Assembly: GCA_024280035.1 (NCBI GenBank)
Contig: JAJRQV010000014.1
Coordinates: 1 to 64,000 of the forward strand
Length of the DNA: 64,000 nt
Direction of reading: 5' to 3'
Origin: Campylobacterales bacterium
GTDB lineage: Bacteria; Campylobacterota; Campylobacteria; Campylobacterales; Sulfurimonadaceae
Shown here: positions 32,146 through 41,393 of the stretch, in pieces
Numbering within the stretch: the stretch's first letter is position 1
How the letters are laid out: each line of letters starts with the position of its first letter
Notes under the pieces: model-generated
Database searches by the model: none
Told to the model about the DNA's origin: nothing
The model's input: the letters and a program-made list of their open reading frames with translations, nothing else
Program-made: the position numbers and the translations under genes

Positions 32146-32220
<75 letters not shown>

Positions 32221-32282
32221 TTTTATAATATTGAAAATTTCAGTATTAGTTTGTAATTTTGAATATTGTTGTAAATATGTAT

Positions 32283-32369
32283 GCCCGGATGGCGAAATTG
32301 GTAGACGCAGGGGACTTAAAATCCCCCGGTAGCAATACTGTGCCGGTTCAAGTCCGGCTCCGGGCACCA
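32283..32369 (+). tRNA. tRNA-Leu (TAA)
   Basis: An 87-base class II tRNA with acceptor GCCCGGA/TCCGGGC, anticodon loop CTTAAAA (anticodon TAA, reading UUA leucine codons), long variable arm, T arm CCGGTTCAAGTCCGG, and an encoded CCA. Confidence 0.96.
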
Positions 32370-32401
32370 TACATTGTTAATTATTTGATTAACTGACGGA
32401 T

Positions 32402-32475
32402 GGCGCCATCGCCAAGTGGTAAGGCCGGAGCCTGCAAAGCTTCTATCCCCAGTTCAAATCTGGGTGGCGCCTCCA
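32402..32475 (+). tRNA. tRNA-Cys (GCA)
   Basis: A 74-base cloverleaf with acceptor GGCGCCA/TGGCGCC, anticodon loop CTGCAAA (anticodon GCA), T arm CCCAGTTCAAATCTGGG, and an encoded CCA. Confidence 0.95.
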
Positions 32476-32510
32476 ACAACAATAAATAAGACTAGCTTGG
32501 CAGCATATCT

Positions 32511-32600
32511 GGACAGATGGCAGAGCCTGGTCGAATGCCCCGGTTTTGAAAACCGGCGAGGGTCATACCTCCTAGGGTTCGAATCCCTATCTGTCCACCA
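32511..32600 (+). tRNA. tRNA-Ser (TGA)
   Basis: A 90-base class II tRNA with acceptor GGACAGA/TCTGTCC, anticodon stem CCGGT/ACCGG with loop TTTGAAA (anticodon TGA), long variable arm, T arm AGGGTTCGAATCCCT, and an encoded CCA. Confidence 0.95.
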
Positions 32601-37049: not shown

Positions 37050-38954
37050 TCATTCATTAACTAATTTAAAGCTTGGACGTCCCAGGTAGTACCCTTGCAT
37101 ATAGTCAATTCCTATATTTTCAATAAGTTCATACTCTTCTTTTGTCTCAATCTGTTCAGCTACTGTTTTAATATTCATTTTTTGCGCAAAGATATTAATG
37201 GTTTCTACAATACTTTTTGCATTACTGTTTTTATGAATATCTCGGATAAGTGTGCCATCTATTTTTAAAATATCAATATCTAAGTGTAATAAGTAGGTAA
37301 AGTTGGCATAACCACTTCCAAAGTCATCCAGAGCAATCTTAGCTCCTGTTTGTCTGATTTTATTTATTTTCTCTTTAAGCAGGTCGAGATTACTCACCTC
37401 TTGTGTCTCTAATATTTCAAAGGTAAGTCGTTTTGCATGTGTTTTATTATGGCTTAATATATCTATAATAATTTCAAGAATATCACTATTAAAAAGGTCC
37501 TGTAATTCTAGGTTAATACTAAGTTCGGCATCTGTTTCTTTGAGTTTTTCCAAACTGGACTCAATAACAAACTTTGTAAGGTCAGTATAGATTTGAGTAT
37601 GACTAATGTAAGGTAAAAAATCATTAGGTAAGATGATATTATTATCATTATCAATCATACGGATTAATACTTCATACTTTTCGATTAGCTTACTTTTTGT
37701 ATTATAAATAGGCTGGTACATACATCGTATTCTTGATTCTTCAATAGCCATCTTTATATCATTAATATATTGGGTTTTATGGGCATGATTATCTTCCATT
37801 AAATCATAGCTTTCCATTCGGTTTCGTCCATTTGACTTCGCTAAATAGAGTTGCTCATCTGAAATTTTAATGGCTTCTTGCACATCTCTAAAATGAGAAG
37901 GGTAAGGGTTAATCCCTATGGATAATGTTAAATCTATACTGTTTTGTTTAGCACGTATTGGATTGTCTCTAAATACATTTAAAATACGTTCAGCAACATT
38001 TTTGGCTTGAGGTAGCGACTGTTTATATAAAAAGAGAACAAACTCTTCTCCTCCATAACGAATTAAAGAGTCTTTTTCTCGAATAAGAGAAGCAATACGA
38101 GAACTGACAGTATTTAAAATAATATCACCAATATCATGCCCATAGGTATCATTAACATTTTTAAAATGATCAATATCTATCATTAAAATTTGGTAATCTT
38201 TTATATCTATATTTTTTAAAAAATTTGAAAGATATTGACGATTAAAAACCTTAGTTAAAGGGTCTATAAAACTGTGTTTACGTGTACGATAATAAATTGC
38301 CACTTGAATATAGACACTTAGGAGCATTAGCACCATAAAAATAGAGATATAAAAATAGAGTTTATCTAAGGGTTCTAAAACTTCATCAATATGAGTCTGT
38401 TCTTCATTATCAAGGTCTATACCAATAGCAGCAACAACCTCACCATTTTCAATAATAGGAATTACCATACTAATCCATAAGGTGTCAAATAATTGTTGTT
38501 GTACACTCTCTTTTTGATTATGGTAAACATATTCCCAACTATTAGTTTGAGGTTCAAAAGGTTGATTGAATAGACCTCTTTCTTCTTCATCCAAAGCGGT
38601 ATCTAATAGATAATCTAATTGAGTTCCATGTGAAGACTTATTATAACTTAAGACATAAAGAAATTTTATTTCTGAAGTGAGTAGGGCGCGAAGCCGATTT
38701 TCATATAAACTTCGTAAACTAAGGGATGATTTCAGTTGTTTAGAGGCATTATTGTCAAGCTCTTTTTCCATCTGAGAAATGAAATTTTTGATAAGCGTTA
38801 TTTTTTTACGCACAAGGTCTTTATGAATAATAGAGTGGATTTTAACATTTGTTTTTTTATACTCTTTGTAGAGATAAATACTACCCGCCGTCATAAAAGA
38901 CAAGAAAAATAAAATGGCTAAAAAAGGTTTTCCAAACTTGTTAAATACAGACAT
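37050..38954 (-). CDS. membrane GGDEF-EAL cyclic-di-GMP enzyme
   Basis: A 634-residue inner-membrane protein. A hydrophobic segment near residue 15-30 and another near 195-215 bracket a periplasmic sensor region. Then comes a complete GGDEF domain (DPLTKVFNRQYL; active loop RYGGEEF) and an EAL domain with EVLIRM, NLELQDL, FEILET, LDDFGSGYANF, KIDGTLI and QGYYLGRP, so the phosphodiesterase residues look present. It could make or break cyclic-di-GMP. It follows a YfiR-like protein and a TonB receptor gene in one minus-strand unit, which suggests a sensor relay. ATG at 38954 is preferred to the TTG before it. Confidence 0.9.
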   Translation of the reverse strand: MSVFNKFGKPFLAILFFLSFMTAGSIYLYKEYKKTNVKIHSIIHKDLVRKKITLIKNFISQMEKELDNNASKQLKSSLSLRSLYENRLRALLTSEIKFLYVLSYNKSSHGTQLDYLLDTALDEEERGLFNQPFEPQTNSWEYVYHNQKESVQQQLFDTLWISMVIPIIENGEVVAAIGIDLDNEEQTHIDEVLEPLDKLYFYISIFMVLMLLSVYIQVAIYYRTRKHSFIDPLTKVFNRQYLSNFLKNIDIKDYQILMIDIDHFKNVNDTYGHDIGDIILNTVSSRIASLIREKDSLIRYGGEEFVLFLYKQSLPQAKNVAERILNVFRDNPIRAKQNSIDLTLSIGINPYPSHFRDVQEAIKISDEQLYLAKSNGRNRMESYDLMEDNHAHKTQYINDIKMAIEESRIRCMYQPIYNTKSKLIEKYEVLIRMIDNDNNIILPNDFLPYISHTQIYTDLTKFVIESSLEKLKETDAELSINLELQDLFNSDILEIIIDILSHNKTHAKRLTFEILETQEVSNLDLLKEKINKIRQTGAKIALDDFGSGYANFTYLLHLDIDILKIDGTLIRDIHKNSNAKSIVETINIFAQKMNIKTVAEQIETKEEYELIENIGIDYMQGYYLGRPSFKLVNE

Positions 38955-38958
38955 CAAT

Positions 38959-39366
38959 TTACCTAGTGTACTTACTAAATGAAGACTCTAAATGAATATT
39001 GTTTTTTTCGATTGAACTTTTTCTAAAAACAATATTAGGACGTCCTTTTTGCCAGAAGAAGGCACCAATAATATTTTCATGTTTAAGATAAGTACGATAT
39101 TTGGTAGTAAATAGTGGTTTGTTTTGACACTCTTTTGGTAATTTTTCAAGTGTGTTAAGAATAATAAGATCTGCCTTATTGCAGTTGTGTGTAGTGTGAA
39201 TACCAGAATTATTTTCTAAATACTTAATATGTCCATACAGGTAAAAAATTGGGTCTTTTTTCTCAGAAACATCCATGGCTAAAGAGAGATAAATTTTTGT
39301 AGCAATATCTTTATCTGAAGCAAATACAGTAGAGATGAGAAGTATTGCTAAAAATAAAACCTTCAA
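38959..39366 (-). CDS. YfiR-like periplasmic protein
   Basis: A 135-residue exported protein: hydrophobic signal (VLFLAILLISTVFA) then a compact domain with two cysteines (HNCNKADLII, KECQNKP) and the C-terminal pattern IIGAFFWQKGRPNIVFR. This resembles YfiR-type (DUF4154) periplasmic regulators of membrane cyclases, though similarity by eye is modest. The TTG start overlaps the TonB receptor stop as TTGA, with GGAG eight bases upstream. An upstream in-frame ATG is less likely. Located exactly between the receptor and the GGDEF-EAL gene, it may connect the two. Confidence 0.6.
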   Translation of the reverse strand: MKVLFLAILLISTVFASDKDIATKIYLSLAMDVSEKKDPIFYLYGHIKYLENNSGIHTTHNCNKADLIILNTLEKLPKECQNKPLFTTKYRTYLKHENIIGAFFWQKGRPNIVFRKSSIEKNNIHLESSFSKYTR

Positions 39367-41357
39367 AACACTAACTCCATTCCAAACCAAAATCGACGCT
39401 GAGTAATAGGGACTACTGTAAAACTTGCCTCTTGAGTGAGTGCATTAATTTGATCTATATAAGACTGTTCAAAACCATCATCAAAGATATTTTCACCCTT
39501 AAGATTAAACTTTAAATCTTGTGTCGCATGATAAATCAATCCAAGATTATAGTCATGCCCATTACTCGTAGTAGAATTTTGCTTTTCATGAATAATAAAT
39601 TCATTAAAAAAATCAAACTTATTTATACTATTGAGCATTCGTATCATGCCTCCATGATAGTGCTGACGTGGAGCATCTTCATAAGGAGCGTCAATAATAT
39701 TTACATAAGCTTGTAATTCAAGTTTATCATTTTGGCTAAAAAACAGGGTCTCTTCAATAGAAGCTAATGTAGTAGAAATTGATTTTTTATTGTTTTGCAG
39801 TTGTAAGGTGGCAGGGTCAATAAGAATGACATCCTCAATACTGTTATAGCCAAAGATAATTTTACTTAAAGAGAAGCTGTTATGATAAGAAAACTCTTGT
39901 AATATTGAGTGAAATGTATTTTCTTTAAGCCCCTCATTACTGTACTGATCAGCAGGAGCGATTGTCATATAAGGGTCGGGGGCAAACTGCATATGGCTTA
40001 AAAATGTTTTAGATACAAAGTTGCCTTTATTAAGTATATATCCCAAACGGGCTTGAAAGAGATTGATATCGTCTACGCTACTGTGTTTATTATGGTAATT
40101 TTGATACATAATTGATAAAGAGAAAATCTGGTTTTCATCCATGCTGTAACCGTCTTCAAAGAAGAATGAGCTGATATCAGTGCTGTAATAAGCTTGAGCG
40201 TAGGGTGTAGTAACAAGGGGAATACTTGAACTTGGGGGTATATATAAGTCACTTATTAAACTGATGTCTGTTAGGTCAAAATGTTTATGACGAAACTTTG
40301 CACCTAGGGTAAACTGATTGTCTTTGTAGTTAAATTTTTTGACTAAACCTAAGGTGAAACTATCCTCTTTTGTTGTTTGCTTTATACTTTTAAGCTGTAC
40401 TTGACCTTCTAAACTAGGGAGAGGTCGGTAGGCATAAGAGGGGTTATAGTAAAGATTATAATCTGTTTCACTTTTCATGATGCTCAGGCTGAAAATAAGA
40501 CTTTTTTCTTGAAAATAAGAGGTCCAGGAGGCAGTTAAAAAAAGATTTTCTAACTTACCGTCTTCTGGAAATTTATTTGAATCTGGTTTGGCAAAAGGAG
40601 AGGTGATACTTACTACTCCCCCTATTAAGGCATCTCTACTTTCGTGTGCGGCAAGAAGTTCAAGTGTATTGTTTTCACTCTCAACGGAGAAGAAGAACTG
40701 CTTACTTAGTTTATTTTTTTTAAGATCTTTTTCGGGTGTTGATATGTTTTTATACTGATTATCTTGCTTAGCAGCATAAGCAAAATAAGAGAAGTTATCA
40801 AACTCTTGGGCATAATAGGTACTTAAAAGATTTGAGCCGTAACTCCCCATTTGGGCTTTTATTTTTCCTCCTGCATCATGTTCGGCTGTTTTAGAGTAGA
40901 GACGTATAACAACAGTGGCAGGTTCTGTGGCAATCTCAAAAGAGGGGAAACCTTGATAAATCTCTATATGGTCAATAAAGTCTAACTCCATATCTCCAAA
41001 ACGTGAAAAACCACTCCCTAAAAGAGGATTAAATAATTCATTTTCATTAAGATAAATGCGAACAGAACTACTATTAAAAAGATTAGGATCGGCATTATAA
41101 AGATCAGGTTGACCCAATCTGTGTTCTTTATAGCCTAAGTAGCGAAGTGATTTCATAAGATCTTTAAGGGTATTGGCTTGCATACGTTCAATATCATCTC
41201 GGGTGTAGATAATAAGGTTGCCTCTAGCCTCATCTTTGGTTTTATTAGAAAGTTCAGAAGAGAGTTTAAAATCATTTAAAAGGCTGTCTATATCTTCAGC
41301 ATTTAAAGATAATGATAAAAAAGTGAATAAAAAAACTGTAGATAATTTACATTTCAT
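39363..41357 (-). CDS. TonB-dependent outer-membrane receptor
   Basis: A 664-residue protein with a signal peptide (MKCKLSTVFLFTFLSLSLNA), a plug domain (about residues 40-160; LIIYTRDDIERMQANTLKDL, VRIYLNENELFNP), and a long beta-barrel ending in a terminal aromatic-aliphatic strand (RFWFGMELVF) as needed for outer-membrane insertion. The ligand is unknown. Barrel hairpins are rich in Tyr, Asn, Ser and Phe. The ATG at 41357 is preferred to an upstream TTG. It is the first gene of a unit with a YfiR-like protein and a GGDEF-EAL enzyme. Confidence 0.88.
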   Translation of the reverse strand: MKCKLSTVFLFTFLSLSLNAEDIDSLLNDFKLSSELSNKTKDEARGNLIIYTRDDIERMQANTLKDLMKSLRYLGYKEHRLGQPDLYNADPNLFNSSSVRIYLNENELFNPLLGSGFSRFGDMELDFIDHIEIYQGFPSFEIATEPATVVIRLYSKTAEHDAGGKIKAQMGSYGSNLLSTYYAQEFDNFSYFAYAAKQDNQYKNISTPEKDLKKNKLSKQFFFSVESENNTLELLAAHESRDALIGGVVSITSPFAKPDSNKFPEDGKLENLFLTASWTSYFQEKSLIFSLSIMKSETDYNLYYNPSYAYRPLPSLEGQVQLKSIKQTTKEDSFTLGLVKKFNYKDNQFTLGAKFRHKHFDLTDISLISDLYIPPSSSIPLVTTPYAQAYYSTDISSFFFEDGYSMDENQIFSLSIMYQNYHNKHSSVDDINLFQARLGYILNKGNFVSKTFLSHMQFAPDPYMTIAPADQYSNEGLKENTFHSILQEFSYHNSFSLSKIIFGYNSIEDVILIDPATLQLQNNKKSISTTLASIEETLFFSQNDKLELQAYVNIIDAPYEDAPRQHYHGGMIRMLNSINKFDFFNEFIIHEKQNSTTSNGHDYNLGLIYHATQDLKFNLKGENIFDDGFEQSYIDQINALTQEASFTVVPITQRRFWFGMELVF

Positions 41358-41393
41358 AATCAACTCATTTTAGTAAAAATTATTTAACTAGCA

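Follow-up and report, generated by a model that had tools for sequence, protein, structure and literature searches.

In the YfiBNR system YfiR represses YfiN, and its own sequestration at the outer membrane depends on YfiB (PMC3375315). Malone et al. described YfiR–YfiN as a modular pair, found also in distant systems devoid of YfiB, with either GGDEF-EAL or histidine kinase domains as outputs (PMC3375315). Most YfiR–transducer pairs far from Pseudomonas have no YfiB (PMC3375315), which raises the question of what informs YfiR there. YfiR contains two disulphides, Cys71–Cys110 and Cys145–Cys152, and its Yersinia homologue HmsC responds to the periplasmic redox state through disulphides (PMC5550408). 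The locus described here resembles YfiBNR (P. aeruginosa; TpbB system), DgcN–YfiR–YfiB of E. coli, and HmsCDE of Yersinia in that an outer-membrane protein, a YfiR-fold protein, and a c-di-GMP enzyme are encoded together. It differs from YfiBNR in having a TonB-receptor-type protein (in 83 of 86 loci) instead of the OmpA-like lipoprotein YfiB, a Cache instead of a PAS sensor, a GGDEF-EAL enzyme with an I-site, and a small protein too diverged for Pfam DUF4154. The sequence-only reading had likened the three genes to YfiBNR with a TonB receptor substituted for the OmpA lipoprotein, and a TonB-type receptor does stand in the place of YfiB.

It is fairly likely that the three proteins form a relay across the envelope, leading from the receptor through the YfiR-like protein to the Cache GGDEF-EAL enzyme, with the contacts, the direction and sign of signalling, and the ligand inferred. 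In this relay the outer-membrane TonB-receptor-type protein would detect an extracellular ligand and alter the availability or conformation of the small periplasmic YfiR-like protein, which would dock on the periplasmic Cache domain of the inner-membrane enzyme and thereby set the balance between its diguanylate cyclase and phosphodiesterase activities. To judge from YfiBNR, the small protein probably acts as an inhibitor which the receptor sequesters; the mode of docking may differ from that on YfiN, the sensor being a Cache domain and not the PAS domain of YfiN.

Organization and distribution of the three-gene locus

The features of the locus in the window, i.e., the whole analysed stretch of 64,000 nucleotides, are listed in Table 1. 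The three genes had been described as running in one direction with a TTGA overlap and near-zero spacing; all lie on the minus strand and their coordinates were confirmed. Besides its ATG start, the receptor gene has an in-frame TTG at 41363. The small gene has its stop at 38959. A TTG at 39366, which forms a TTGA overlap with the stop of the receptor gene, is favoured as its start because most family members begin there and a GGAG sequence is found ca. 10 nt upstream. The Cache-GGDEF-EAL gene begins 4 nt past the small gene. The 4-nt stop/start overlap of the receptor and small genes recurs in many relatives. Elsewhere in the window, at 32146–32600 on the plus strand, there are four clustered tRNA genes (Gly, Leu, Cys, Ser).

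Table 1. Features of the receptor–small protein–transducer locus (positions in the window)
Feature	Position	Strand	Remarks
TonB-dependent-receptor-type outer-membrane protein	39363..41357	minus	ATG start; ~664 aa including signal peptide; plug and barrel
Small exported YfiR-like protein	38959..39366	minus	~135 aa; TTG start
Inner-membrane transducer	37050..38954	minus	ATG start; TM helix, periplasmic single Cache, TM helix, GGDEF (with I-site), EAL
Cache sensor region of the transducer (~residues 1–225)	38283..38954	minus	from alignment and census; common to GGDEF-EAL, GGDEF, and histidine-kinase versions
TTGA stop/start overlap of the receptor and small genes	39363..39366	minus	read from the sequence

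The small protein was searched for in 299 genomes of the order and, with a profile, in 397 genomes of the phylum Campylobacterota, and was found in 103 and 89 of them, respectively; the share of the sampled Campylobacterota genomes that have the gene thus lies between about one fifth and one third. Regions around the matches were taken regardless of their neighbours, and profiles built with the window genes as seeds were used to scan them. A receptor-type gene lies directly upstream of the small gene in 83 of 86 loci (it is absent in three). The downstream side is occupied by a Cache-sensor signalling gene in 78 loci, the sensor being absent there in eight. The complete trio, in the same order, is present in 76 of the 86 loci, one of the 76 being cut by a contig end. 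The co-occurrence of the trio in relatives, whose absence the sequence-only reading had named as grounds for rejecting its proposal, is thus found across Campylobacterota, and its conservation is far beyond chance. The evolutionary distances of the three proteins are correlated as well (r 0.83–0.90 in 66 loci; best permutation 0.13), which is expected for any stable, jointly inherited operon and by itself is no proof of contact.

Two variants of the gene order were seen. In one locus (L005, 1–4948) the order is receptor, small gene, receptor, small gene, Cache GGDEF-EAL, i.e., a tandem duplication of the input pair before one transducer. In another (L101) the Cache-GGDEF-EAL gene precedes the receptor gene and does not follow the small gene.

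The small protein and its cysteines

The small protein of the window has no Pfam or NCBIfam match, DUF4154 is absent from the Pfam families listed for its 81 homologues, and there is no overlap between the places of the small protein and those of DUF4154 in the order. Direct sequence searches with it against PDB and against plasmids gave nothing credible. The 81 relatives align with one another and carry the C-terminal motif GAFFWxKGRPNIxF. The structure prediction suggested earlier as a check against YfiR yielded a confident AlphaFold model (pLDDT 92.5) and a structural match: in a fold search of PDB, YfiR of P. aeruginosa occupies ranks 1–4 (best E 3.3e-4, probability 1.00, TM up to 0.59). 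For a comparison of profiles 25 Campylobacterota DUF4154 proteins were used, whose profile itself finds YfiR in PDB at 1e-10. In hhalign the small-protein family matched this profile over its full length (138 columns) with a probability of 95% and E of 3.6e-8, compared with a probability of 0.7% for an unrelated sensor used as a control. With the signal peptides removed, the link to the DUF4154 profile is only moderate (probability 56%), but its score of 29.3 is twice the highest value obtained in 60 column shuffles (14.4). Since YfiR is the top fold match and the profile link to DUF4154 exceeds both the shuffles and the control, it is concluded that the small protein is a remote homologue of YfiR, too diverged to be recognised by Pfam DUF4154, and the YfiR-like character ascribed to it earlier is thereby borne out.

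The substrate-binding-protein lobes 3lkv, 8wgl, and 3lft, found among the YfiR entries, match the fold of the small protein almost as well as YfiR does, the YfiR fold being similar to a lobe of ABC-transporter substrate-binding proteins. This resemblance, together with the fact that Cache domains can be ligand-controlled, speaks for an unlikely alternative in which the small protein would be a periplasmic ligand-binding protein: the receptor would import a ligand, and the liganded protein would activate the Cache domain, as for some chemoreceptors and LuxP/LuxQ. However, the ca. 115 mature residues amount to a single lobe with no two-lobe cleft, the homology detected is to YfiR, and the receptors show no recognisable TonB box (see below), which argues against energised import.

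The periplasmic redox state had also been suggested to control c-di-GMP through the small protein, which has two cysteines (C70 and C88 in the 143-aa reading of the window protein). Of the 81 family members 57 have both cysteines, 18 have neither, and six have a single one; the two-disulphide pattern of YfiR is not found, the family having as a rule at most one cysteine pair. A redox switch operating family-wide was rejected, as the two cysteines mostly occur jointly or not at all and 18 of 81 members have neither, which makes a general redox input unlikely and leaves this part of the earlier proposal unsupported. The pair is likelier to be a structural disulphide, to judge from its distribution, than a family-wide switch.

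The transducer and the receptor

In the transducer Pfam recognises EAL (7e-63) and GGDEF (1.3e-39), and both active sites are intact, with GGEEF, the RxxD I-site, and the metal-binding and catalytic residues of EAL, in agreement with the earlier description of the enzyme as a GGDEF-EAL protein with all its key catalytic residues. The catalytic residues of EAL hardly vary among 52 long GGDEF-EAL members, 47 of which have an intact GG[DE]EF. A single Cache domain, modelled with a pLDDT of 93.7, forms the periplasmic sensor; its best matches among solved structures include the extracellular domain of WalK, and its conserved residues are R115, D119, P167, and D181.

As in YfiBNR, a transducer with a periplasmic sensor and a GGDEF output adjoins the YfiR-type gene: a receptor and a Cache-GGDEF(-EAL) protein accompany it in 66 of 86 loci, and the kinase version in nine more. 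The output of the complete loci is GGDEF-EAL in 53, GGDEF only in 13, and a histidine kinase in nine, and in seven of the nine kinase loci an EAL match is also found within range. The gene following the kinase codes for a receiver-PAS-EAL response regulator in six loci (L062, L063, L074, L082, L096, and L097), where a four-gene phosphorelay takes the place of the direct GGDEF-EAL output. The alternative outputs converge on c-di-GMP, because the same sensor is joined to GGDEF-EAL, to GGDEF, or to a kinase mostly followed by an EAL regulator. That the sensor is a Cache domain common also to the kinase outputs is a point beyond the sequence-only reading.

Small molecules are the usual ligands of single Cache domains. 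A sensor domain of this kind, with R115, D119, P167, and D181 conserved, could bind a small-molecule ligand of its own, and the small protein would then merely tune the sensor or serve the receptor. This explanation is very improbable, as it does not account for the sensor and the small gene staying together in 78 of 86 loci despite the exchange of the output domain.

The receptor of the window gives a weak match to Plug in Pfam (E 0.003, below the cut-off); among 72 receptor homologues Plug was found in 62 and the TonB beta-barrel in 18, and none of the 72 matched the STN signalling domain. Ahead of the plug, where a TonB box would be expected, lies a short conserved N-terminal segment, LLxxYxxxSxLSxxTKxExxG, found by one pattern in 57 of the 72. 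A strict TonB-box pattern was dropped, since it also misses ordinary receptors, and a relaxed one was used instead. TonB boxes being degenerate, this pattern is to be read with caution; it was found in two of the 72 trio receptors (in one inside the signal peptide, the other being FKLSS of the window protein) and in all six other receptors of the source genome with a readable start. The lack of a recognisable TonB box in the trio receptors is therefore no more than suggestive. TonB proteins are encoded in the source genome.

Ligand uptake had been proposed as one possible input, with iron and vitamin B12 named for a check of c-di-GMP levels. The uptake of iron or vitamin B12 found no backing: the match to the B12-receptor model scored 19 bits, its cut-off being 600, so that the assignment as a B12 receptor was rejected, and the receptor belongs to a group with no recognisable TonB box. 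The assignment as a FecA-type transducer was likewise rejected, there being no STN domain. The trio is similar to FecA–FecR and FpvA–FpvR in employing an outer-membrane receptor in the proposed signalling across the periplasm; in contrast to them it comprises neither an STN domain nor, in the adjacent genes, an anti-sigma/sigma pair, and its output is c-di-GMP. It may tentatively be proposed that the receptor has lost its TonB box and serves exclusively in outer-membrane signalling, not in transport. Its conserved N-terminal segment LLxxYxxxSxLSxxTKxExxG would then bind the YfiR-like protein directly, and an external ligand would act on c-di-GMP independently of TonB.

TonB-type receptors beside genuine YfiR proteins

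The order TonB receptor–YfiR–transducer is found in eight of 21 Campylobacterota regions with a genuine DUF4154 protein (recognised by profile match or, in some cases, from the N-terminal sequence encoded upstream), and Sphingobium and Pseudoalteromonas plasmids also carry a TonB receptor–YfiR pair, followed in the Sphingobium indicum plasmid by an ATP-binding (kinase-type) protein. These TonB receptor–DUF4154/YfiR–transducer operons of Sphingobium, Pseudoalteromonas, and other Campylobacterota share with the trio the gene order and the apparent roles of the products. They differ from it in that their small protein either matches Pfam DUF4154 or bears the name of the YfiR family, some of their receptors carry a TonB-box-like segment, and their transducers belong to other types (histidine kinase or GGDEF). 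The general TonB receptor–YfiR arrangement is already visible in public genomes and the trio is its divergent variant. Because genuine YfiR, too, is flanked by a TonB receptor and a transducer, both in Campylobacterota and on proteobacterial plasmids, the trio may be regarded as a divergent branch of the YfiR-type relay, with a TonB-type receptor putatively in the place of YfiB.

Many YfiN–YfiR pairs have no outer-membrane partner (PMC3375315), and Yersinia HmsC responds to redox through disulphides (PMC5550408), hence the receptor could be an ordinary importer sharing nothing but the operon with a downstream YfiRN-type pair that senses something else, e.g., envelope or redox stress. This is unlikely in view of the position of the receptor gene upstream in 83 of 86 loci, a receptor group with no recognisable TonB box, the recurrence of genuine YfiR proteins beside TonB receptors, and the cysteine pair missing in 18 of 81 small proteins. 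The evidence points to the TonB-receptor-type protein as the outer-membrane partner of the YfiR-like protein, in a small-protein family outside Pfam. If the relay from the receptor to c-di-GMP operates as proposed, the sensing of extracellular ligands at the outer membrane would be linked to c-di-GMP through a three-gene unit, directly testable in cultured Sulfurimonas-type bacteria. The literature searched, whose coverage leaves out most subscription journals, yielded no YfiR–TonB link of relevance and no functional description of the arrangement, and the trio appears to represent a branch of a known relay that has so far escaped annotation.

Among the DUF4154 loci several details may be recorded. 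In L154, L155, L158, L164, and L167–L170 the genuine DUF4154 gene is preceded by a TonB-receptor-like gene and followed by a transducer gene, and the receptors of L168–L169 have at their start an LL-containing segment similar to the one in the window family. In the Pseudoalteromonas plasmid (L175, 2411–4471) the annotation splits the TonB receptor upstream of the YfiR gene into two pieces. DUF4154/YfiR was also found in long frames (~500–880 aa) additionally matching GGDEF or histidine kinase, apparently YfiR fusions (L146, L147, L148, and L150). The source genome itself contains a second YfiR-type unit (contig C35, 1–3135; L014), in which a recognisable YfiR (DUF4154) gene with no TonB receptor beside it is placed between receiver-GGDEF-EAL and membrane sensor genes and overlaps them by 4 nt each.
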